DNA from: Candidatus Omnitrophota bacterium
Lineage (GTDB): Bacteria; Omnitrophota; Gorgyraeia; Tantalellales; Tantalellaceae
NCBI GenBank assembly: GCA_016783605.1
Contig: JADHWG010000015.1
Location: 1-32,092 of the forward strand
Length of the DNA stretch: 32,092 bases
Reading direction: 5' to 3'
Position 1 is the first letter of the stretch, and every line of letters begins with the position of its first letter. The position numbers and the translations under genes are program-made. A model generated the notes under the pieces. It was not told the origin of the DNA. It saw only the letters and a program-made list of their open reading frames with translations, and searched no databases. This document shows positions 3,571 through 20,377 of the stretch, piece by piece.

Positions 3571-4904
3571 TTCCCTACGCTCGCGTCCCGTATATCACAC
3601 TTTATGACAAAATAAGCGCGTGTTGAGGCGTCTTCGGTTTCGGTGTCTTTAGATTCTTCCAATTCAACGTTTTTAAAAAACGTTGATTCTTTTAAGGCTC
3701 TCACCAAATCGAAAACGCCGGTGCCGGAAATCGCTTCTCCCTTGAAAACGATCTCTCCTCTTTTGTTGCTGACTAAACTGGCCAAATAGGTATCTTTCGG
3801 AATAACTCTTTTTATTTCGGCGAAAATGCCAACCCAATCTTCCTTGCCGACTTCCTTTATTATTTCTTCCTGTTTCTTTTTTTCAAGACTATACGCGCTG
3901 TCCATTTTTTCGACCCTTAAAAGTTCTTCCAATCTTTTTACCGGTCTTTCCAGATCTTTCTGAACGCCTTTGGCGATGTTCCGCGAATTCCACATTTGAA
4001 AATACAATAGCGAAAAATATACCACGATACCTGCCGCCACAATTGCCAGGACTTTTATAAAAAATGAAAACTGCACGTTAAATTTTGACTCTTTTAATTC
4101 TTCCACTGGCAAAAGATTGATCTTAACGGGAAATTTGTTGTTCGGTGATTCCCTTAACGTGATCCCTTCCGCCGCGGTTAATTCACCTGTTGCCGAGGAC
4201 ACTATTTCCTTTACCTCAAATTCTTCACCGAACTCATTTCTGCAGTAAGCCGTAATGGATTCCATTTCCGTTTGCAATTCATCTAACGTATCAGCTTTAT
4301 GCAGGTAATGTATTTTGCCGTCCTTAAAAATAAATATTGTGGCATTGTCATATTCCACGGCCGCCAAAACAACAGCCCCTTTCAATGAAGAGGCATCTTT
4401 CAAAAAAAGCGCTCTCGCGATAGCTATTGAACTTGCCTCTATACAGCGCAGATTCAATCCCGCCAACTTTATAGTTTCAACATATGAATCTATTATTTCT
4501 CTTTTTGCCGCGACCGATAAAATTTTTAACTGCCGGATCCCGTTCTCATTTATTTCTTCCACTGTGCAAAAATCCGTTAAAAGATCACTACCGGCGAAAA
4601 CCATATATTTGGAAGCCTCTTGTTTTATTATTCGATTTACTTCGCCCGTTCCGACAGCCGGCACTTTCATTAGGCGAAGAACAACACCTCTTCCCCAAAC
4701 AACCGCGCCCATATCTTTAGACTTGATCCCCTGAGACTTCAAGAGATTTTTAAGCTCCTCGGCCGCTTTGTGGGGATCAACTATAACACAATCCTTCGAA
4801 ACCGCCTTTTTAAGAGGAAGTATGACAGGTTCATTGATCTCACTCGTTACGACCCTGATCTCTCTCGGTCCGATATCCAATCCCACTATTGAACTTTTAC
4901 CCAT
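3567..4904 (-). CDS. PilM-PilN fusion (GspL-like) assembly platform protein
   Basis: The N-terminal ~265 residues are PilM-like: the actin-fold phosphate loop SIVGLDIGPREIRVV lies at the very start, and further actin-type blocks (GAVVWGRGVVLRLMKVP, EIIDSYVETIKLAGL) follow. A membrane helix lies at about 280-300 (FFIKVLAIVAAGIVVYFSLLY), then a PilN-type coiled coil and C-terminal domain. PilM and PilN are usually separate genes; the fused layout equals GspL of type II secretion. Start choice: an upstream in-frame ATG at 4919 exists, but the ATG at 4904 overlaps the preceding stop as TAATG and has GGAAAG about 7 bases upstream, so I use it (445 residues). The protein would couple the cytoplasmic ATPase to the PilO/PilP-like periplasmic part. 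Confidence 0.87.
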   Translation of the reverse strand: MGKSSIVGLDIGPREIRVVTSEINEPVILPLKKAVSKDCVIVDPHKAAEELKNLLKSQGIKSKDMGAVVWGRGVVLRLMKVPAVGTGEVNRIIKQEASKYMVFAGSDLLTDFCTVEEINENGIRQLKILSVAAKREIIDSYVETIKLAGLNLRCIEASSIAIARALFLKDASSLKGAVVLAAVEYDNATIFIFKDGKIHYLHKADTLDELQTEMESITAYCRNEFGEEFEVKEIVSSATGELTAAEGITLRESPNNKFPVKINLLPVEELKESKFNVQFSFFIKVLAIVAAGIVVYFSLLYFQMWNSRNIAKGVQKDLERPVKRLEELLRVEKMDSAYSLEKKKQEEIIKEVGKEDWVGIFAEIKRVIPKDTYLASLVSNKRGEIVFKGEAISGTGVFDLVRALKESTFFKNVELEESKDTETEDASTRAYFVIKCDIRDASVGK

Positions 4905-5302
4905 TATTTTTCTTTCCAATATTGTAGTGTCGCGGTACTTCCCACAATTTTTATTCTTGCTTCAATTATTCTTTCGAAATTTCCATATTCGCCTGTAGAT
5001 TCCACGGTGTACACATTCACCGAAACCGCCGTCTGCACTACGGTATAGAACGTATCATCATCCGCGGTATCCGGGAACTCTGTCCTGGCAATGTTTCCGT
5101 CTCCGCCGTCCAGCAAATCATATATGGCCGCTTCCACGCCCGCGTCGGCAATATACGTCGCGATAGCACCGCTTTTCTGATTGCGCAAAATCTCAGTCTC
5201 ACTTGTCGCCGCTTCTAAAAAGCCTATCGTTAAAATAGCCCCCACCATCACCACAAACGCCGCCACCAATAAAACCGCACCCTTGTTATTGTTCAACTTC
5301 AT
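4904..5302 (-). CDS. Short PilX/GspK-like minor pilin
   Basis: About 132 residues, with a class III-like leader MKLNNNKG followed by a hydrophobic helix (AVLLVAAFVVMVGAILTIGF) that lacks the usual Glu5, as in PilX/GspK tip pilins. A soluble region with TSETEILRNQKSGAIATYIADAGVEAAIYDL follows; the 'AxYxADAGxE' block is the hallmark of the PilX N-terminal family. Gram-negative GspK has about 300 residues, so the large extra domain is absent. The reading frame is open up to an ATG at 5347, but those 15 extra codons come from the inserted repeat at 5318-5350; the ATG at 5302 gives a normal prepilin leader. It lies in the slot where gspK sits in gsp operons. Confidence 0.82.
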   Translation of the reverse strand: MKLNNNKGAVLLVAAFVVMVGAILTIGFLEAATSETEILRNQKSGAIATYIADAGVEAAIYDLLDGGDGNIARTEFPDTADDDTFYTVVQTAVSVNVYTVESTGEYGNFERIIEARIKIVGSTATLQYWKEK

Positions 5303-5317
5303 TTTAAAACCTATATT

Positions 5318-5350
5318 GGGCTGTCGCAAAATACTTTTTCCTGTCATCCT
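5318..5350. repeat. Single arm of the CTGTCGCAAAA repeat inside the pilus operon
   Basis: The segment GGGCTGTCGCAAAATACTTT plus CCTGTCATCCT matches the outer arm of the inverted repeat at 2244-2373. It fills the gap between two pilin genes and supplies the TGA stop (5344-5346) of the upstream GspJ-like prepilin. Without a second arm it cannot form the long hairpin, so it is probably a decayed copy. Confidence 0.75.
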
Positions 5351-6189
5351 ATAGTTATACTCGACGTCGGATTATATCTTCCCGCCGGCGAAGCGTTATC
5401 TTTAACATCCATTTTCACCGACCATGATCCCGAAGCAAGCCCTGTCAGATCCTGAGAACCGGTATAAGTTTCGTCTCCATTATTGGTTAAGCTGAAATCA
5501 ACTCTGGTTCCGCCTTTTTTGAGCTGGCATGTGGCGTAATCCAGATTCGTATGATCAACTTGATCACTCCACACCTTAACGTAAAAAATATCCGATGTGC
5601 TAAAAACCGTGTCTTCCGTTGAAAAATCGGAATTTTTTGAAAGTATATATCCTTCACCCGGAACAGGAGTGCTTCTGATGTAAACCATTGATGTTAAAAC
5701 GATCGGACTGACAGCATCGCTTGGCTCCGAAATCGTCATAGATACTCCGACAGCCCTAACATCCTCTGTTTGAGATGTTTTCTTACCGGTTGTATCATAA
5801 TAGTCAAAACCAAGATCGTTCACTCCGGCAACCATACCGGCCAAAATTTCACCGTTTCTTGTCAAATAATCGTTCGTCTCAGTATAGGTAATATTGGTGC
5901 CGTCTACATCATTAAAACTAACGGACCTTCCGCTAGTAGCAGTAAATTCATCCGCCTGGCGAAGTTCCTGAATCATTTTATCCATTCCCACACGCGCGTT
6001 CTGCACAACTTCGCTTCTTTTGTCCGCCGATTCCCAGCTCACGTGAAATGCCCTAAGATAAGGCGTTATCGCCGCCAAAAGTACAGCGACCAAAGCTATA
6101 ACGAACAACACTTCGATTAAAGTAAAACCTTTTCTATCGTATATCGTATGTCGTATATCGTATATCGTTTTTTTTAATGCATATTGCAT
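5344..6189 (-). CDS. GspJ/PilW-like prepilin with repeat-encoded leader
   Basis: This 281-residue protein carries a canonical prepilin cleavage site, RKG/FTLIEV, with Glu5 at mature position 5. A hydrophobic helix (LFVIALVAVLLAAITPYL) and a GspJ/PilW-like region with ARVGMDKMIQELRQADEF follow. The C-terminal half is beta-rich and resembles an immunoglobulin-like domain (YTGSQDLTGLASGSWSVKMDVKD). The only usable ATG gives a 21-residue leader made almost entirely of the local TATCGTATGTCG repeat (residues TIYDIRHTIYDR). The start lies 4 bases after the stop of the four-helix gene at 6194-6571 with no evident Shine-Dalgarno, which suggests translational coupling. The stop codon lies inside another repeat (5318-5350), so both ends of this gene are repeat-derived. 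Confidence 0.85.
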   Translation of the reverse strand: MQYALKKTIYDIRHTIYDRKGFTLIEVLFVIALVAVLLAAITPYLRAFHVSWESADKRSEVVQNARVGMDKMIQELRQADEFTATSGRSVSFNDVDGTNITYTETNDYLTRNGEILAGMVAGVNDLGFDYYDTTGKKTSQTEDVRAVGVSMTISEPSDAVSPIVLTSMVYIRSTPVPGEGYILSKNSDFSTEDTVFSTSDIFYVKVWSDQVDHTNLDYATCQLKKGGTRVDFSLTNNGDETYTGSQDLTGLASGSWSVKMDVKDNASPAGRYNPTSSITIG

Positions 6190-6192
6190 ATC
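6125..6192. repeat. TATCG-rich repeat forming the prepilin leader (copy A)
   Basis: The segment is made of TCGTATATCGTATGTCGTAT-type units, then a T-run and a degenerate ATGCATATTGCATATCG. It is closely similar to 7318-7378 next to the second four-helix gene. It lies between the four-helix stop and the FTLIEV codons of the GspJ-like prepilin and encodes that prepilin's leader. Confidence 0.8.
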
Positions 6193-6193
6193 G

Positions 6194-6553
6194 TTATTTT
6201 AGTTTATGCTTTAGAGATGTCGTCATTTTGGAGATATGGTCTAACTTTTCCGACACTCCTGCAAGTTCCGTTTCGCTGATATACCTTAGTTCCCTTGAAA
6301 TAATAAGTTGCGTTTCAAGCTCAGCGCACGAACCAAGAGATATGTTTAGAAATTGTTTATATTCCTTATTGTAAAACCTTTTGAAACCTTCCGCAACATT
6401 TGATGGTATTGAAATAGCAGCTCTTCTCATTTGAGAAGTTAAACAGTACAATTCCTCTTTGGGAAATTTTCGTGTAATCGCATAAATATCCTTTACAACT
6501 TCAATTCCCTTCTGCCATATTTTTAGTTGTTTAAAACTCTCTATTTTTTTCAT
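6194..6553 (-). CDS. Four-helix bundle protein (S23-like), copy A
   Basis: About 119 residues from the chosen start. It belongs to the four-helix bundle family first known from proteins encoded in 23S rRNA intervening sequences (TIGR02436) and related in fold to the Avd accessory protein of diversity-generating retroelements. Diagnostic blocks are FKQLKIWQKG at the N-terminus and RRAAISIPSNVAEGFKR in the middle. No biochemical function is established for the family. It sits between GspI- and GspJ-like prepilin genes. The frame is open to an ATG at 6571, but GAGGAGGAA lies immediately before the ATG at 6553, and the paralogue also starts at the equivalent MVKIENFKQL, so I use 6553. It is about 85% identical to copy B (100 of 117 aligned residues by eye). 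Confidence 0.85.
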   Translation of the reverse strand: MKKIESFKQLKIWQKGIEVVKDIYAITRKFPKEELYCLTSQMRRAAISIPSNVAEGFKRFYNKEYKQFLNISLGSCAELETQLIISRELRYISETELAGVSEKLDHISKMTTSLKHKLK

Positions 6554-6574
6554 TTCCTCCTCGGTGCACATTTT

Positions 6575-6942
6575 GCTACATACGACATACAGCTCTTACC
6601 CCTGCTCTTTCGATATACTATATGCTACATACGACATACGGCTCTTACCCCTGCTCTTTCGATATACTATATGCTACATACGACATACGGCTCTTACCCC
6701 TGCTCTTTCGATATACTATATGCTACATACGACATACGGCTCTTACCCCTGCTCTTTCGATATACGATATACTACATACGACATACAGCTCTTACCCCTG
6801 CTCTTTCGATATACTATATACTACATACGACATACGGCTCTTACCCCTGCTCTTTCGATATACTATATGCTACATACGACATACAGCTCTTACCCCTGCT
6901 CTTTCGATATACTATATGCTACATACGACATACGGCTCTTAT
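6575..6942. repeat. Tandem array of 49-bp units
   Basis: Seven complete 49-bp units begin at 6575, 6624, 6673, 6722, 6771, 6820 and 6869; a partial eighth begins at 6918. Units differ at only a few positions (CATACAGC/CATACGGC, GCTACAT/ACTACAT, ACTATAT/ACGATAT). Each holds TACATACGACATAC, two near-identical CTCTT(A/T) blocks and CGATATACTATAT. There are no unique spacers, so this is not a CRISPR. The array ends exactly at the stop codon of the GspI-like prepilin (TTA at 6939-6941) and lies directly upstream of four-helix copy A. A single-unit version stands at the same place before copy B. Confidence 0.95.
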
Positions 6943-7373
6943 CCTCTATCCGCCACTTTCGTACTCAGCGTTATATTCGATTCGCCGGGATCGATCGTAT
7001 CATCATTGTTCTCGTCGTACCACACGCAAACTTGGATAACTTTTATGTTTGCGGCGCCGTCATCCGAAACCGTATACTTATAATCATCGTTCGGCGAATC
7101 AAACGCGGTTGTCGACTCTGTCGCGGAAGTGGCGAAACTATCCACAACACCACGCTTGACATCTTCAATCTTTCCTTCCGCCAAAAATATAACCTTGGTG
7201 AGCTCCTCGTCCTTTAAGCTTTTTTCAATGATCTGAGTGGTAATGATCATTATGGGAATAAGCGCCGCGGCTATAAGTATTATGGCCGCTAAAACTTCAA
7301 TTAAAGTAAAACCTTTTCTATCGTATATCGTATGTCGCATGTCGTATATCGTTTTTTTTATCGTATGTCGCAT
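6939..7373 (-). CDS. GspI/PilV-like prepilin with repeat-encoded leader
   Basis: This 144-residue prepilin has a cleavage site RKG/FTLIEV with Glu5, then the hydrophobic helix LAAIILIAAALIPIMIITTQ. The following ATSATESTTAF and KVIQVCVWYDENND regions fit the small GspI/PilV minor pilins that prime the pseudopilus. The leader (TIKKTIYDMRHTIYDR) is translated from the local TATCG-rich repeat. An internal ATG at 7340 would give a 10-residue leader instead of 21. The start lies 11 bases after the stop of four-helix copy B and has no clear Shine-Dalgarno. The TAA stop is the first triplet of the 49-bp array. Confidence 0.83.
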   Translation of the reverse strand: MRHTIKKTIYDMRHTIYDRKGFTLIEVLAAIILIAAALIPIMIITTQIIEKSLKDEELTKVIFLAEGKIEDVKRGVVDSFATSATESTTAFDSPNDDYKYTVSDDGAANIKVIQVCVWYDENNDDTIDPGESNITLSTKVADRG

Positions 7374-7384
7374 ATCGGATAAGG
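7318..7384. repeat. TATCG-rich repeat forming the prepilin leader (copy B)
   Basis: It consists of TCGTATATCGTATGTCGCAT-like units, an eight-T run and TATCGTATGTCGCATATCGG. The sequence matches the copy at 6125-6192 in order and content. It separates the four-helix copy B stop from the prepilin codons FTLIEV. Confidence 0.8.
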
Positions 7385-7744
7385 TTATTTTAACTTGCGT
7401 TTTAGAGATGTTATCATTTTAGAAATATGGTCTATTTTTTCTGACACTTTCTCAAATTCCGTCCCGCTAACATATTCTAATTCTCTTGAAACAATAAGTT
7501 GCGTTTCAAGTTCAGCACAGGAACCAAGTGCTATGTTTAAAAATTGTTTGTATTCTTTATCGTAAAACCTTTTAAAACCTTCCGCGACATTTGATGGTAT
7601 TGAAATAGCGGCTCTTCTCATTTGAGAAGTTAAACAATATAACTCCACCTTGGGGAATTTTCGTGAAATCGTATAAACGTCTTTTACGACTTCAATCCCT
7701 TTCTGCCATATTTTTAATTGCTTAAAATTTTCTATTTTTACCAT
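7385..7744 (-). CDS. Four-helix bundle protein (S23-like), copy B
   Basis: This 119-residue paralogue of the gene at 6194-6553 shares the blocks FKQLKIWQKG and SIPSNVAEGFKR. It starts with a clear GAGGG Shine-Dalgarno 4 bases upstream, within the 3' end of the flanking repeat. It lies between the GspH-like and GspI-like prepilin genes. Upstream is a single repeat unit (7751-7781, CGATATACGATATGCGATATACGGCTCTTA) ending in the stop codon of the GspH-like gene; downstream is the repeat that encodes the next prepilin's leader. The same layout around copy A indicates a cassette that moved or duplicated as one piece. Function is unknown; RNA binding is possible from the family's positively charged bundles, but this is inference. 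Confidence 0.85.
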   Translation of the reverse strand: MVKIENFKQLKIWQKGIEVVKDVYTISRKFPKVELYCLTSQMRRAAISIPSNVAEGFKRFYDKEYKQFLNIALGSCAELETQLIVSRELEYVSGTEFEKVSEKIDHISKMITSLKRKLK

Positions 7745-7750
7745 TTTCCC

Positions 7751-7781
7751 TCGATATACGATATGCGATATACGGCTCTTA
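7751..7781. repeat. Single-unit equivalent of the 49-bp array (cassette B upstream edge)
   Basis: The sequence CGATATACGATATGCGATATACGGCTCTTA shares CGATATAC and ATACGGCTCTTA with each 49-bp unit at 6575-6942. Its last three bases are the stop codon of the GspH-like prepilin, the same register as the array edge at 6939. Confidence 0.75.
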
Positions 7782-8228
7782 AGCTTCCGCCAATTCCACT
7801 CTGCCCGTAGCCACTGTCACTGTAATATCATATTGATTCCCATCAGCGGAAAGTGAAATATCGGTGTCACTCGCCGCGGAAGCGTTGCCGAACGCTTCAA
7901 AAATAAAATCCTTATCACCGCTGACGGTAATAGTCGAATCTATTGTTTCGGTATTGCCTACTTGACCATCTCCTGAATCGTATATTTCGTATTCATTCGT
8001 TGACGCGGTAACTTGAAGCCTGTAATTTTCGTTATTGGTTATTGCCAGGCGGCGCGTATATCTTAGGGTTGAAACTAATTTTTTAGAAGCCGTATACACT
8101 TTCATTTTAACAGTGAACGGAAGACCCATTCTTGGTATCACAATCACGGCCACAAGCATGACGACTATAACAACAAAAATCAACTCGATAAGCGTGTACC
8201 CGCGCGCGCGGAGATTTTTTCCATCCAT
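7779..8228 (-). CDS. GspH/FimT-like prepilin
   Basis: The start ATG at 8228 gives 149 residues with leader MDGKNLRARG, cleavage before YTLIEL (Glu5 present) and a hydrophobic helix IFVVIVVMLVAVIVIP. The region SKKLVSTLRYTRRLAITNNENYRLQV (about 42-67) is the typical GspH/FimT alpha segment leading into its beta domain. The frame extends to an ATG at 8321, but that would overlap the preceding pilin gene by 64 bases and give an implausible 41-residue leader; GGAACC precedes 8228. It lies in the gspH slot after the GspG-like gene. The TAA stop is the first triplet of cassette B's edge repeat. Confidence 0.85.
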   Translation of the reverse strand: MDGKNLRARGYTLIELIFVVIVVMLVAVIVIPRMGLPFTVKMKVYTASKKLVSTLRYTRRLAITNNENYRLQVTASTNEYEIYDSGDGQVGNTETIDSTITVSGDKDFIFEAFGNASAASDTDISLSADGNQYDITVTVATGRVELAEA

Positions 8229-8256
8229 GACCGGTTCCAATATTTTATCTATGTCT

Positions 8257-8604
8257 TTAATCGTGTAATGAATGATCTTCAGGAGTCGTAACGTCACAAT
8301 CCGTTCTATAGGTGGTTCCACTCATTGTATAGGCGCCGCCCGAAGGACATTCCGGTTCTCCGTCCGGAAAATAATCGGTATCCTGCGTAACCGTTACGAG
8401 CGTCCCCGGCCAAGTTCCGGTATCCAGTCTATATTGCTCAATTTGTAAATTCATCATGGATTGATTGGCTTTACACGCGTTCGCTTTCGCGACGGCCGTC
8501 GTTGTTGTTATCCTCCCCAAAGCAATGGCCGCTATTACGGCAATAACAATTACAACAAATAAAACTTCGATCAGTGTAAAACCCTTTTTATTTTCCCCGC
8601 GCAT
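8257..8604 (-). CDS. GspG/PilA-like prepilin (probable major pilin)
   Basis: This 115-residue prepilin has leader MRGENKKG, then FTLIEVLFVVIVIAVIAAIALGRI with Glu5, and a short globular part. The pattern NACKANQSMMNLQIEQYRLDTGTWP followed by FPDGEPECPSGGAYTM is typical of small type IV pilin/pseudopilin and ComGC-type subunits; two cysteines (in EPECPSG and RTDCDV) could form the usual C-terminal disulfide loop. GGAGG sits 4 bases before the start. It is first of the four prepilin genes, directly after the platform protein gene, as gspG is. Confidence 0.88.
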   Translation of the reverse strand: MRGENKKGFTLIEVLFVVIVIAVIAAIALGRITTTTAVAKANACKANQSMMNLQIEQYRLDTGTWPGTLVTVTQDTDYFPDGEPECPSGGAYTMSGTTYRTDCDVTTPEDHSLHD

Positions 8605-8639
8605 CTATCCTCCTTTTTAACGAATCAATATTCAAAAAT

Positions 8640-9749
8640 TTAGCCGGCTGACGTCATTTTAGTCATAACATCAAATATCGGCAGATATATCGCGATCGCG
8701 ATAAATCCTACCAGGATCGCCATAAAAAAAGTCATAATTGGCTCTATCTTAACCACAAGCCTTTTAACAATATCATCCACATCTCTTTCTAAAGCATCAG
8801 CGGATTTCTCGAGCATATAGTCAAGCGCGCCCGATTCCTCCCCGGAAGCTATCATCTGAACGGTTGAGGGAGGAAAAATATTCTGATCTTTTAACGCCTC
8901 TGAAATTAATTTTCCGTTCTGGACGTTATCTGCCATATCTTCCACAATTTCCGAAACAGCCTTGTTATTCGCGACCTTATCCGCCACGGCCAACGATTCC
9001 TGTATGATTATCCCGCTTGAGATCATGTCCCCGAATGTTCTTATGAAACGCGCCGTACTCGAAAGTCTCATAAGGCGTCCAAAAACGGGCATCCTTAGTT
9101 TAATGTTATCCAGCATTTCCTTAAAAACCGTATTTTTTAACGCCATTTTCAAACCGACTATTCCCGCGCCCGACGCGATCAATATTGCCCACCAAAATCT
9201 TCTTACAAAATCGCTGAACGCGACTAAAGCCAGCGTCGGCAAAGGAAGCGTAACGCCTAACCGTTTATAGATGTCGCTAAACACCGGAACGATCACTATA
9301 ACCAAAAACCCGACGACTAAAATTGAGAGTACGCCGACAACCACCGGATAGCTAAAAGCGTTTCTGACGGTTCTACGTAAATTGTCTTGTTTTTCAAGAT
9401 GGTCCGCTAAACGCAAAAGCACCTTGTCCAAAATACCCGCGGCTTCCGCCGCCTTAATGAGCGCGATAAAAAATTCTGAAAAAAGAGCGGGATATTTTTC
9501 CATCGCTTCCGATAAAGAAGCGCCGTTTTCGATATCGATCCGTATCCCCGCGACAGCTTTTTTCAAAACAACGTTTTCCGTCTGTTTTTCCAACGCGCTC
9601 AAACATTTTATGATCGAAATACCGGCACTGATAAGCGTCGAAAACTGTCTTATAAACACTACCAAATCTCCCATCGAGACTTTTTTAGTGCCGAAAACAA
9701 TAATATGCTTAGCTCGTTCCATGGTTACGTTACCTACTTGTTCCGCCAT
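8640..9749 (-). CDS. PilC/GspF inner-membrane platform protein
   Basis: The 369-residue protein contains two tandem T2SSF domains, each with an amphipathic helical bundle and a membrane helix (about residues 120-150 VVVGVLSILVVGFLVIVIVPVF, a middle one near 175-195 and a C-terminal MTFFMAILVGFIAIAIYLPIFDV). Blocks FIRQFSTLISAGISI and SGEESGALDYMLEKSADALE are diagnostic for PilC/GspF. Start choice: the frame is open to 9905, but the first 52 codons run through REP-like palindromes; the ATG at 9749 has GAGGT 7 bases upstream and gives the normal family length. It lies between the assembly ATPase and the prepilins and should anchor the ATPase-driven polymerisation platform. Confidence 0.93.
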   Translation of the reverse strand: MAEQVGNVTMERAKHIIVFGTKKVSMGDLVVFIRQFSTLISAGISIIKCLSALEKQTENVVLKKAVAGIRIDIENGASLSEAMEKYPALFSEFFIALIKAAEAAGILDKVLLRLADHLEKQDNLRRTVRNAFSYPVVVGVLSILVVGFLVIVIVPVFSDIYKRLGVTLPLPTLALVAFSDFVRRFWWAILIASGAGIVGLKMALKNTVFKEMLDNIKLRMPVFGRLMRLSSTARFIRTFGDMISSGIIIQESLAVADKVANNKAVSEIVEDMADNVQNGKLISEALKDQNIFPPSTVQMIASGEESGALDYMLEKSADALERDVDDIVKRLVVKIEPIMTFFMAILVGFIAIAIYLPIFDVMTKMTSAG

Positions 9750-10004
9750 AAATTTACCTCGGGTTCGCCTCTTGTATATTGTCACAATTCGGGTAACAAA
9801 TCGGCAATTTTTTGGAACATACGAGATCCCGACCGAAGAGCCGTGATCTCGTTGCTTTATCAAATCCGTAGGGGCGCGGTTCCCGCGCCCTTTAATCAAC
9901 ATCATCTAATCAACATTTCATCAATTAGGGCGGGGAAACCCCGCCCCTACAATTTGTTCGCTAAATTGTAACAACGTACACCCTACGAAAATCCACCATT
10001 GAGA
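9750..10004. repeat. pilB-pilC intergenic repeats
   Basis: The 255-base gap holds the dispersed motif ATTGTCACAATTCGGGTAAC (about 9779-9798) and two palindromes: GGGCGCGG..CCGCGCCC at about 9871-9890 and AGGCGGGG..CCCCGCCC-type at 9927-9948. Both have CTACG/CGTAGG flanks. The hairpins may lower or stabilise the mRNA between the ATPase and platform genes; I see no gene or strong promoter. Confidence 0.7.
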
Positions 10005-11447
10005 TCAGTAAACAATTCTCTTAATTTCTTCTTTTGTTGTAACACCCTCGGCGACCTTATCCGCGCCGTTTTCCGCGAGCGTTTTCATTCCTTCTTTTTC
10101 AGCCTGTTTTCTGATCTGGAGAACGGATGCTTTGCTTAAAATTAAATTCTGTATGTTTTCAGAAACAGCCATAAGCTCAAACACGCCTATTCTGCCTTTA
10201 TAACCGGTCTCATAACACGCGCTGCATTTTTTTCCTTTACATTCCGGACAGATCGTACGGCATAATCTTTGCGCCGCCGCCCCTATAACCGTGGCGGAAA
10301 CCAAAAACGGCTCCACCCCCATATCGACAAGCCTCGTGATAGCACTGGCGGCATCATTCGTATGAAGCGTGCTCAATACGAGATGCCCCGTAAGCGCCGC
10401 CTGCATAGCTATTTCGGCGGTTTCTTTATCTCTTATTTCACCGACCATTATGATATCGGGATCTTGCCTCAATATTGTTTTTAGTCCCGTGGCAAAAGTT
10501 ATCTTAGCCCCTTCATCGACCTGCACCTGGTTTATCCTGTTTATTTTATACTCGACGGGATTTTCAATCGTGATGATATTGCGCTCGGTCGCGTTAAGCT
10601 GTTTTAATATAGCGTACAACGTGGTTGTTTTTCCGCATCCGGTAGGACCGGTGATAAGCACTATTCCGTATGGTCTTTTAATTAATTTTTCGAAACGCGT
10701 CTCATCTTCCGATGTAAACCCGAGCTCTTCCAAACCTATAAGCATAGCCGTCTTGTCAAATATCCTCATAACCGTTTTTTCACCGGCGACAGTGAGCATG
10801 GTCGAGACTCTCATATCGTATTCGCGGGCGTTCCGATTCAAAACAATGTGTCCGTCCTGAGGTCTGCGCCGCTCGGCAATATTCATGTTTGCCAGCACCT
10901 TTATTCGCGATATAACAGCCGACTCTATGTGTTTGGGAATCGTCATAATGTCATGAAGCATCCCGTCTATTCTGTATCTAACCACCATTTCGGGTTCTTG
11001 CGGCTCCAGATGTATATCGCTGGCAGCACTGTTTATGCCTCCGGAGACAATATCATTTACCAGTTTCACCACCGGGACCTGTCCGACTTCGGAAATCGGC
11101 TCGTCCATGGAAACCATCGGCTTTTTTTTCTTAGCTTTTTTTAATTCCGCGAGGCGAATATCAATAAGAGCTTGCTTACTTATCTCTTCGGCTTTGTAAT
11201 AACGGCCTATGGCTTTAGTGATCTCTCTCTCGGAAGCCCTGAGGGGAGAGATATTGCAGCCTGTCAGAAGTTTTAATTCATCCCTTAAAGGCAAATTCGC
11301 CGGATCCGCCATAGCGACAAAAAGGGTACTATCGTCTAATTTTACGGAAATAACTTTATATTTTCGGGCGATCTCTTCAGGAATCATTCTTACAACCTGC
11401 GCGTTGATCTCTTCCCGGGCAAGTTTTATTTCAGGAAATTCCGACAT
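10005..11447 (-). CDS. PilB/GspE assembly ATPase
   Basis: This 480-residue AAA+-like secretion ATPase has an N-terminal MshEN/GspE-N domain (about 1-95, ending near DELKLLTGCNISPL). The catalytic core follows: Walker A GPTGCGKT at 267-274, an Asp box around ENPVEY 295-300, Walker B RQDPDIIMVGEIRD at 327-340, and the His box around LSTLHTNDA 358-366. A tetracysteine zinc site is intact (C400, C403, C408, C411), which marks extension-type PilB/GspE rather than the PilT retraction ATPase. The start has GGAGGT about 5 bases upstream. It begins 26 bases after a CheY-like gene and precedes pilC, so the assembly operon probably starts further upstream in the regulatory genes. Confidence 0.95.
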   Translation of the reverse strand: MSEFPEIKLAREEINAQVVRMIPEEIARKYKVISVKLDDSTLFVAMADPANLPLRDELKLLTGCNISPLRASEREITKAIGRYYKAEEISKQALIDIRLAELKKAKKKKPMVSMDEPISEVGQVPVVKLVNDIVSGGINSAASDIHLEPQEPEMVVRYRIDGMLHDIMTIPKHIESAVISRIKVLANMNIAERRRPQDGHIVLNRNAREYDMRVSTMLTVAGEKTVMRIFDKTAMLIGLEELGFTSEDETRFEKLIKRPYGIVLITGPTGCGKTTTLYAILKQLNATERNIITIENPVEYKINRINQVQVDEGAKITFATGLKTILRQDPDIIMVGEIRDKETAEIAMQAALTGHLVLSTLHTNDAASAITRLVDMGVEPFLVSATVIGAAAQRLCRTICPECKGKKCSACYETGYKGRIGVFELMAVSENIQNLILSKASVLQIRKQAEKEGMKTLAENGADKVAEGVTTKEEIKRIVY

Positions 11448-18822: not shown

Positions 18823-18825
18823 TAT

Positions 18826-18926
18826 TAATCTTTCAGGTTTCAGGCTTCAGGTTTTCCCGCCGAAGGCGGGTCCGCCTTCGGCGGAAAAGCGTGAAGCGTG
18901 TCACGTGTAACGTGTAACTTATAACT
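18826..18926. repeat. Quasi-repetitive spacer with a GC-rich hairpin
   Basis: The gap holds TTTCAGGTTTCAGGCTTCAGG direct repeats, then a hairpin CCGCCGAAGGCGG..CCGCCTTCGGCGG at about 18854-18885, then GTGTCACGTGTAACGTGTAAC simple repeats. It has the same style (short, staggered units either side of a centre) as the flanks of the four-helix cassettes, without a gene inside. Confidence 0.6.
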
Positions 18927-18928
18927 TG

Positions 18929-20377
18929 CTACTCATTCTTTTCAATTGCCACGATTATTCCCATCACCATCCACATCAGCATACTAAGCTGCATGGCAAA
19001 TAAATTTGTGTCAACCACGCTGTGTCCCAAAAACCCGAAAAGCCCGGATAGAAATCCGGCCAAAAGCGCGCGCTGGAATTTATCTTTTGTTTTTACGATT
19101 TTTATGAACACCACAATAAACAAAGTTGCAATTGTTAATAAAAACGTACCTAACCCCAAAAGACCTATCTCCGCCGCCATGTGAAGATATGAATTATGCG
19201 GATAAAATCCGGTTGAAGCCTGTTTTTTATACGAAGGAGCTACGATCGAATAGGTATTCGGACCGGTTCCCGTTATTGGAAAATCTTCAACAATGGCTAT
19301 GGCTTCCTTCCATAGTTTTAGTCTGACGCTTACACTTTCTTCCACATTGGTGGAAAAAGAAACGGAAGGAACAAAAGACGCCGGCGCGATATCAGAAGAA
19401 ACAGACGCAGAAGCGGGGGGAGAAACGGTGGGAGAAACAGAAGAAGAAACGGTGGGGGAAACAGCGGAAGAAGTAGAAAAAGAAAACGATTTCACAAATA
19501 CTTTCGCGCGTTCTTTTACGAAATTCGGAACAATTAACGAACAAATGAGCACAACGACCGGTATCAAAAATAGCAGTCTTATATTTTTCATGATGATACC
19601 GAGAAAGATCAAAGAAAATATAGCGGAAATCCACGCTCCGCGCGAACCGGCAAAGATCAAGCAAATTATCAGAAAAACCGTTAGCGCCCAAAGCACGGAT
19701 CTCATAGACCTAACCACATGGGCGAATTTCCCGAAATGGTCCCGCCATGAATCCATCCAAAAATACGCCAGCGCCAGAACCGGCGGAAGCATCAAAATGA
19801 GCCACGCGGCAAAATCATTTTGGTTCCCGAAAGAAGATTGGATCCACCCTCGCCCGGAAAAAGAAAAATGTCGAATAAAATCCGTGCCGGTAACATATTG
19901 AAAAATCCCGTTCACGGTTATGAGAAATACAGACAATAAAACCGCGATCAATACCTTGTCCCTTTTTTTCGTATCACTCATTACTTCAACGGTTATGAAA
20001 TACATCGCGATATACTCAAAAAGCTTCAGGAATAAACCTTCCAGGCTTAAAAAAATGGAAACGCTTCTAACCGTCGAAGCGAAATTGACAATGAAAAATA
20101 TGAGGATCGGAAAATTCAGTTTTGTAGATACCGGCTTGAACATCGCTATTATCGACACTTTTTTCTCTCTACGATAAACCAAAATTCGTTTTGTGATCCA
20201 CAAAACGAACATGCACGTAAACAATATTTCCATCAAAGATTTGGAAAACGGAAGGCAAAAGATTAAGGCCCATAACAAAAATTCCTGAACCTTGTCTATC
20301 AGCGCCATTAATCGGAAGTGTTCCATTTTAGGGATTTCGCATAGTTTATTCACGATTCCTCGTACAATTTTCGCCAT
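18929..20377 (-). CDS. O-antigen ligase/polymerase-like (Wzy_C) membrane protein
   Basis: This 482-residue polytopic protein, with roughly 10-12 hydrophobic segments, carries Wzy_C/O-antigen-ligase signatures: SRGAWISAIFSLIFLG (near 245-260) and the large periplasmic loop ending TGTGPNTYSIVAPSYKKQ...FYPHNSYLHMAAEIGLLG (near 370-410). These enzymes transfer or polymerise glycans from undecaprenyl pyrophosphate on the periplasmic side. Within the loop is an unusual stretch of about 50 residues (about 300-350) built almost only of S, V, P, T and A (SPTVSSSVSPTVSPPASASV), likely disordered. It is the only O-unit polymerase candidate here, but no Wzx flippase is in the window. An alternative is a protein glycan ligase (PglL-type), which shares the fold. 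Confidence 0.85.
   Translation of the reverse strand: MAKIVRGIVNKLCEIPKMEHFRLMALIDKVQEFLLWALIFCLPFSKSLMEILFTCMFVLWITKRILVYRREKKVSIIAMFKPVSTKLNFPILIFFIVNFASTVRSVSIFLSLEGLFLKLFEYIAMYFITVEVMSDTKKRDKVLIAVLLSVFLITVNGIFQYVTGTDFIRHFSFSGRGWIQSSFGNQNDFAAWLILMLPPVLALAYFWMDSWRDHFGKFAHVVRSMRSVLWALTVFLIICLIFAGSRGAWISAIFSLIFLGIIMKNIRLLFLIPVVVLICSLIVPNFVKERAKVFVKSFSFSTSSAVSPTVSSSVSPTVSPPASASVSSDIAPASFVPSVSFSTNVEESVSVRLKLWKEAIAIVEDFPITGTGPNTYSIVAPSYKKQASTGFYPHNSYLHMAAEIGLLGLGTFLLTIATLFIVVFIKIVKTKDKFQRALLAGFLSGLFGFLGHSVVDTNLFAMQLSMLMWMVMGIIVAIEKNE

Follow-up and report, generated by a model that had tools for sequence, protein, structure and literature searches.

How did two genes for four-helix proteins of the S23 family (PF05635) come to stand between consecutive prepilin genes of one gsp/pilin operon? 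The operon lies on the minus strand of the window, by which we mean the whole 32,092-nt contig JADHWG010000015.1 (contig C23) of the 1.65-Mb Candidatus Omnitrophota genome GCA_016783605.1. Its gene order is gspE, gspF, gspG, gspH, S23-2, gspI, S23-1, gspJ, and on to gspL-like genes. A first, sequence-only reading had taken each four-helix gene with its flanks for a cassette that moves as one unit and lands at prepilin junctions. We put the probability at roughly 0.7 that both cassettes are copies of a mobile element, here called the S23-heptad element, in which tandem 7-nt repeats form inverted arms around a single S23 gene.

Gene S23-2 (nt 7385–7744, minus strand) encodes a protein of 119 residues. 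Gene S23-1 (nt 6194–6553, minus strand), with an upstream ATG at nt 6571 as an alternative start, is 85% identical to it. Both are full PF05635 members (E about 1e-40: 6.5e-40 for S23-2 and 4.1e-40 for S23-1), so the two four-helix genes, their similarity of about 85%, and their places between H, I, and J are as first read. The window S23 scores 136 bits for PF05635 against a cut-off of 33.8, and 128.6 for the S23/23S_rRNA_IVP family (TIGR02436) against a cut-off of 24. No other S23 gene is present in the whole genome. The AlphaFold (AF2) model of S23-2, with a predicted local distance difference test score (pLDDT) of 97, exhibits the four-helix fold. Its best PDB match is 2GSC, the solved S23 relative XCC0516 of Xanthomonas campestris (template modelling score, TM, 0.92; root mean square deviation 0.9).

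The flanks of both genes are inverted arms of tandem heptads of the CGTATAT family, a feature absent from the sequence-only account. On the gene strand the G-rich arm lies 5′ and the C-rich arm 3′ of S23, and the two are mutually complementary; as RNA, the arms of the S23-2 element are predicted to pair around the gene (z=-4.28). The plus-strand sequence ATACGGCTCTTA occurs at nt 7770–7781 and 6930–6941, and its TTA is the stop codon of the gspH-like prepilin gene (nt 7779–8321, minus strand) and of the gspI-like one (nt 6939–7373, minus strand), respectively, confirming the matched upstream flanks that end in the stop codon of the preceding prepilin. The sequence TCGTATATCGTATGTCG is found at both nt 6137–6153 and nt 7321–7337. 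In the S23-2 element, the 5′ arm (nt 7752–7778; inverted repeats I3, I5, and I6) begins at the gspH stop codon (nt 7779–7781), and this flank reads GAGCCGTATATCGCATATCGTATATCG on the gene strand. The 3′ arm (nt 7314–7380) reads CGATATGCGACATACGAT(A)8CGATATACGACATGCGACATACGATATACGAT. The S23-1 element, which adjoins the gspI stop codon, has the same 3′ arm (nt 6129–6187). Its 5′ arm (nt 6571–6944; families D1 and D3) is amplified to eight 49-bp (7 × 7) tandem units between gspI and S23-1. Since these units occur 5′ of S23-1 only, the two cassettes differ in layout; the identical layout that had been claimed holds for the 3′ arm and the stop-codon abutment, but not for the 5′ sides.

The downstream flank had been described as running into the next prepilin gene. 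It is indeed contiguous with it, but the overlap goes further, in that the 3′ arms of the S23-2 and S23-1 elements encode the start codon and the entire leader peptide of GspI and GspJ, respectively (MRHTIKKTIYDMRHTIYDRKG^F and MQYALKKTIYDIRHTIYDRKG^F; gspJ-like prepilin gene, nt 5344–6189, minus strand). The 3′ arm would be tolerated in this operon because it can do duty as the leader peptide of a prepilin, a segment that is cleaved away. Prepilin leaders encoded by heptads of other sequence (e.g. NESRVTSHESRSNKG and HDIRHTTCDVRLTTCDNKG) were also seen in the gsp operons of three relatives, G017, G018, and G001 (loci L152, L156, and L157).

About 110 S23 loci of some 15 phyla were gathered from relatives, genome contigs, and plasmids. 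The groups sampled include Omnitrophota, Planctomycetota, Nitrospirota, Bacteroidota, Cyanobacteriota, Acidobacteriota, Calditrichota, Thermodesulfobacteriota, Myxococcota, Patescibacteria, two archaeal groups, and others. Period-7 arrays flank nearly every one of these loci, on one side or on both, and the heptad sequence is genome-specific. Within 150 bp, such arrays are present upstream of 75% and downstream of 58% of the S23 genes (upstream enrichment, p=3e-39), versus 11–12% of the other gene boundaries in the same loci, a control value itself raised by elements without S23. Complementary arms were found at 86 of 111 cognate loci versus 18 of 111 mismatched ones, with the upstream arm G-rich in 73 of the 86. 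The similarity of S23 proteins and that of their heptads correlate between phyla (Spearman 0.23; 0/300 permutations), suggesting that the arms and the gene travel together and possibly recognize each other. Octad arms occur in 5 of 101 tree rows, scattered over the tree; as a mark of an S23 subclade they were rejected, since they require four changes for five rows.

That the element is mobile is evident from empty sites on plasmids of Nostocales. An S23 element is present in conjugative plasmid C of Trichormus variabilis and in Scytonema, and is missing from four inspected plasmids that are ~97% identical around the site. The empty site reads AAAAAGTAATTAACAAA and the filled one AAAAA-GTAAT-[element]-GTAAT-TAACAAA. 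The second clean site is in Nostoc ATCC 53789 pNsp_a, where the filled sequence is TTTAGG-TTCTA-[element]-TTCTA-GTTATGC and the empty one TTTAGGTTCTAGGTTATGC. The duplications, GTAAT and TTCTA, are both 5 bp long, and each includes the stop codon that ends the upstream gene. The S23 gene and its arms thus form one unit; its clean insertion at the stop codon of an upstream gene duplicates 5 bp of the target. The arms gain and lose heptads, those of Trichormus and Scytonema differing by 14 bp, that is, two heptads. The S23 genes decay in place, as remnants at locus L169 and in G017 demonstrate; the Trichormus/Scytonema insertion site of Nostoc C052 pE carries a truncated S23. In a 50-kb plasmid alignment no heptad insertion was seen besides the S23 element. 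The view that the gene and its two flanks move as one is therefore upheld by these empty sites and by the same architecture in ~15 phyla. The precise filled and empty sites and the target duplications are those of related elements on the Nostocales plasmids; the window copies themselves have no true filled/empty pair with a duplication.

The landing place follows a rule. The S23 gene is co-directional with its upstream neighbor in 64 of 70 cases (p=2e-13) and with both neighbors in 52 of 70, and the heptad array begins at a median of 4.5 nt past the upstream stop codon (n=50). This sense orientation suggests that S23 could be made by read-through. The neighboring genes are unrelated to one another. 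A preference for prepilin junctions, as had been proposed, is not borne out: the co-directional genes behind whose stop codons the elements land are of every sort, and an insertion that separates cas10 from cmr3 is one example. Landing at a stop codon, together with the reuse of the arms as prepilin leaders, indicates how such elements lodge in an operon and leave it intact.

Heptad elements are scattered elsewhere in the genome of the window, where they were counted by pattern searches and 20-kb samples. The heptad 23-mer pattern has 129 matches, compared with 0 for the reversed control, showing that the flank pattern of the window is not due to chance. Most of the 129 are hairpin elements of 75–110 bp without an S23 gene, comprising a G-rich arm, a GC-rich palindrome (CCGCCGGAGGCGG..CCGCCTCCGGCGG), and a C-rich arm. 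The ends of the S23-less elements in this genome are degenerate. The palindromic core is found almost exclusively inside heptad arms. In being short non-coding elements that share their termini, inverted heptad pairs, with the full element, they resemble miniature inverted-repeat transposable elements (MITEs). A second heptad family of the genome (GGTTACA/TTTCAGG) has the same GC-rich core; its only window copy is an S23-less inverted element (TTTCAGG) at nt 18824–18933, between two genes.

The heptad arrays follow the presence of S23. Samples of 20 kb were compared between eight S23-positive Omnitrophota genomes (600 kb) and thirteen S23-less ones (793 kb); samples of the window's own genome were left out, because they had been taken from contigs already known to match. 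The positive sample contains 33 period-7 arrays, two of which belong to one S23 element itself, versus 3 in the S23-less sample. Periods 6, 9, and 10 exhibit no significant difference. The heptad pattern of the present genome (G000) matches 129 times there, 24 times in G017, and not at all in four S23-less genomes. The S23 heptad of G020 matches 43 times in G020 and 0 times in the S23-less genomes. G020 also matches the heptad pattern of the present genome, yet so does the control there. Hairpins without S23 but with the same heptads are thus scattered in S23-carrying genomes and almost absent from S23-less ones. Carriage by phages was rejected, as 50,697 phage records contain no S23 and viral contigs gave no exact match to the heptad 23-mer. 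In G020, perfect arrays of the heptad CGAGATA occupy the extreme ends of five contigs (C24, C33, C38, C9, and C12), as if recent identical copies interrupt the assembly.

Several points weigh against the cassettes being mobile elements driven by S23. Unambiguous target duplications were found at two insertions only. Three further presence/absence sites are real but have untidy ends; one of them is in a type III-B CRISPR operon on a plasmid of Picosynechococcus PCC 7003, where the S23 element (L181 nt 1992–2348) separates cas10 from cmr3, and PCC 7002 pAQ6 (L183) lacks it. No S23 gene was found in this genome for its second heptad family. The correlation between S23 and heptads is also expected from simple inheritance of the arms with the gene. 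That S23 binds the heptads and is needed for movement is an inference. Finally, S23 insertions are common to related species in several clades, so some copies are long-lived. The same-locus insertions kept across species of Planctomycetota and Chryseobacterium (L070, L074, L078, L086, L092, and L096; L101, L109, L110, L127, and L128) suggest that some are perhaps domesticated.

This last observation could also mean that S23 is not mobile at all, but resides in its operon as a regulator or processing factor that the host keeps, the arms being attenuators or RNase III sites. Orthologous insertions shared by species of Chryseobacterium, Planctomycetota, and Nitrospira, the strong conservation of the S23 protein, and the folding of the arms around the gene as RNA would all fit, and RNase III is known to excise the S23-bearing intervening sequence of Coxiella (PMC4990558). 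A host-kept factor does not account for the empty sites, target duplications, and decayed copies, nor for the unrelated neighbor genes and the relatives' gsp operons without intact S23. We therefore consider a resident factor improbable.

Whether the two window copies represent two landings is a separate question. The gsp operons of five family-level relatives (G017, G013, G001, G002, and G018) contain no intact S23 gene, so a prepilin, four-helix, prepilin order that is ancestral and free of empty sites, which would have spoken against a moving cassette, is not what the relatives exhibit. What is left at the H/I junction of G017 is the final codons of an S23 gene together with the 3′ arm, indicating that the H/I insertion took place before these genera diverged and has since decayed in G017. 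S23-1 and S23-2 are sisters on the tree (support 100/99), and S23-1 may be a local duplicate of S23-2 or a second jump. The proposal that both copies had landed as cassettes thus stands as to the mobile unit, while two independent landings are not required, given the sister relation and the age of the H/I copy. Local duplication of S23-2, or recombination between the arms and the conserved FTLIEV codons, could have given S23-1 with no second transposition, and we rate this somewhat below even odds. Besides the sister relation, both elements are placed identically relative to FTLIEV, and gspI and gspJ share nearly the same 29 bases over that junction. On the other hand, the 5′ sides of the two elements are unlike, with eight 49-bp units at S23-1, and heptad arms of other sequence end at the same point before prepilin genes in other genera (G001 and G018), which makes an independent landing plausible.

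How might an S23-heptad element move? Pfam, NCBIfam, and PADLOC searches of its only open reading frame, S23, revealed no catalytic, transposase, or integrase domain. Across 32 diverse S23 members, residues E34, E55, E78, and E80 do not vary, thus a hidden activity is conceivable. In our model, the S23 protein, a pentamer in the solved relative, would recognize its own heptads on an extruded hairpin or single strand and would act in trans on elements with and without an S23 gene. Host enzymes or an unrecognized activity would do the cutting and joining, which we propose because no known catalytic domain is present. The chances seem to us about equal that S23-heptad elements are in general such a widespread kind of mobile DNA, without a recognizable transposase, in which the pentameric S23 recognizes its own arms and drives stop-codon insertion of full and S23-less elements alike.

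The arms may instead be moved by another enzyme, such as a Y1 transposase of the IS200 type or the type associated with repetitive extragenic palindromic (REP) elements (RAYT), with S23 a passenger that does something else. Y1_Tnp genes occur in 39/42 S23-positive genomes but in only 9/17 S23-less ones (p=0.001), the present genome has seven, and the GC-rich palindromic core of the S23-less elements resembles REP elements. Yet Y1 is missing from three S23-positive genomes and present in nine S23-less ones. IS200/IS605-type insertion leaves no target duplication, so the 5-bp duplications do not fit its chemistry. Nor does the GC-rich palindrome lie beside the two Y1 genes inspected of the seven; as a RAYT-linked REP the core was rejected on that observation. 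A passenger role for S23 is accordingly judged unlikely.

A link to reverse transcription had also been thought conceivable. In the form considered here, a transcribed hairpin would be copied by a reverse transcriptase (RT) and S23 would act like Avd in diversity-generating retroelements (DGRs). The S23 model does match the Avd fold with TM 0.77–0.78 (Avd of the Bordetella phage DGR, 4DWL; DGR ribonucleoprotein, 8UBE), and the insertions lie in sense direction behind stop codons. The Avd models, however, score the window S23 under their cut-offs (30.7 versus 40 bits; 34.4 versus 80 for NF033474, E=2e-8). The search of the genome for an RT gave a single RVT_1 gene, on contig C20, in an unlinked DGR with its own Avd. 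No RVT_1 gene is present in 32 of 42 S23-positive genomes, and RTs are not enriched (10/42 versus 4/17 in S23-less ones). Mismatches in the arms comprise 98 G.U and 91 A.C; with no G.U excess there is no sign of RNA-level pairing, and RNA-level selection on the arms was rejected. No Rfam family matches nt 4800–9000 of the window. RNA-based movement thus appears highly improbable. The C20 retroelement (L162, nt 9297–10869) consists of the RT gene and an adjacent Avd-like gene, possibly with a variable-protein gene nearby (C-terminal NGNYWSSTQ-type motif), and no link to heptad elements was seen.

The S23-heptad elements share features with several known systems. S23 (PF05635) genes between terminal inverted repeats have been described as intervening sequences (IVSs) of 23S rRNA in Leptospira and Coxiella, for which a mobile origin was proposed (PMC4990558). 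IVSs have long been suspected to be mobile or selfish, and their complementary termini around an S23 reading frame are present here as well. Unlike IVSs, the window elements are outside rRNA, not in helix 25 or 45 of a 23S rRNA gene but behind stop codons between prepilin genes, and S23-heptad elements have tandem-heptad arms, target duplications, and S23-less derivatives. Short dispersed palindromic elements such as REPs with their RAYTs, REP doublets forming hairpins (REPINs), and MITEs are likewise presumably moved in trans by one genomic gene, but S23 is not a transposase, insertion duplicates 5 bp, and in place of a fixed sequence the repeat is an array of heptads. With Avd (PF22296, NF033474), S23 shares the four-helix fold and the pentamer (2GSC for S23, 4DWL for Avd); the window S23 differs in having no linked RT or template/variable repeat.

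Heptameric repeats are known from cyanobacteria, as short tandemly repeated repetitive (STRR) sequences, and from other bacteria. Inverted heptameric repeats have been reported as GGGAATC in Xanthomonas, in facing pairs, and as GGGGAYT in Nostoc (PMC4692102). The heptads of Geobacter were described as putative regulator sites (PMC2700814), and a mobile repeat-binding protein was speculated on for the TAACTGA repeats of Beggiatoaceae (PMC4679880). These are tandem 7-nt units in intergenic places, often as facing pairs in Xanthomonas and Geobacter, as in the present elements; the papers give no gene or mover for them, whereas the heptads here are tied to S23 genes across phyla. We found no paper in the open-access literature that links S23 with heptad repeats, although an earlier description elsewhere is possible. 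No Xanthomonas S23 was among the plasmid matches listed. To our knowledge, S23-family proteins, which many genome annotations call 'four helix bundle protein' or 'S23 ribosomal protein', have no function assigned outside rRNA, and reports of heptanucleotide repeats have accumulated over decades without a known cause. The link between the two gives both a testable role, with S23 as the factor that recognizes and spreads heptad arms. If true, it would also account for the heptanucleotide repeats seen in Nostoc, Xanthomonas, Geobacter, and elsewhere. If S23 were shown to be the mover, the elements would be a class of their own, beyond the S23/IVS kind, and if S23 alone suffices with host enzymes, they would represent DNA mobility without a classical transposase.

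PADLOC reported nothing. At the left end of the window, nt 71–1748, a gene pair resembles, by eye only, an AbiEii/AbiEi toxin-antitoxin system.

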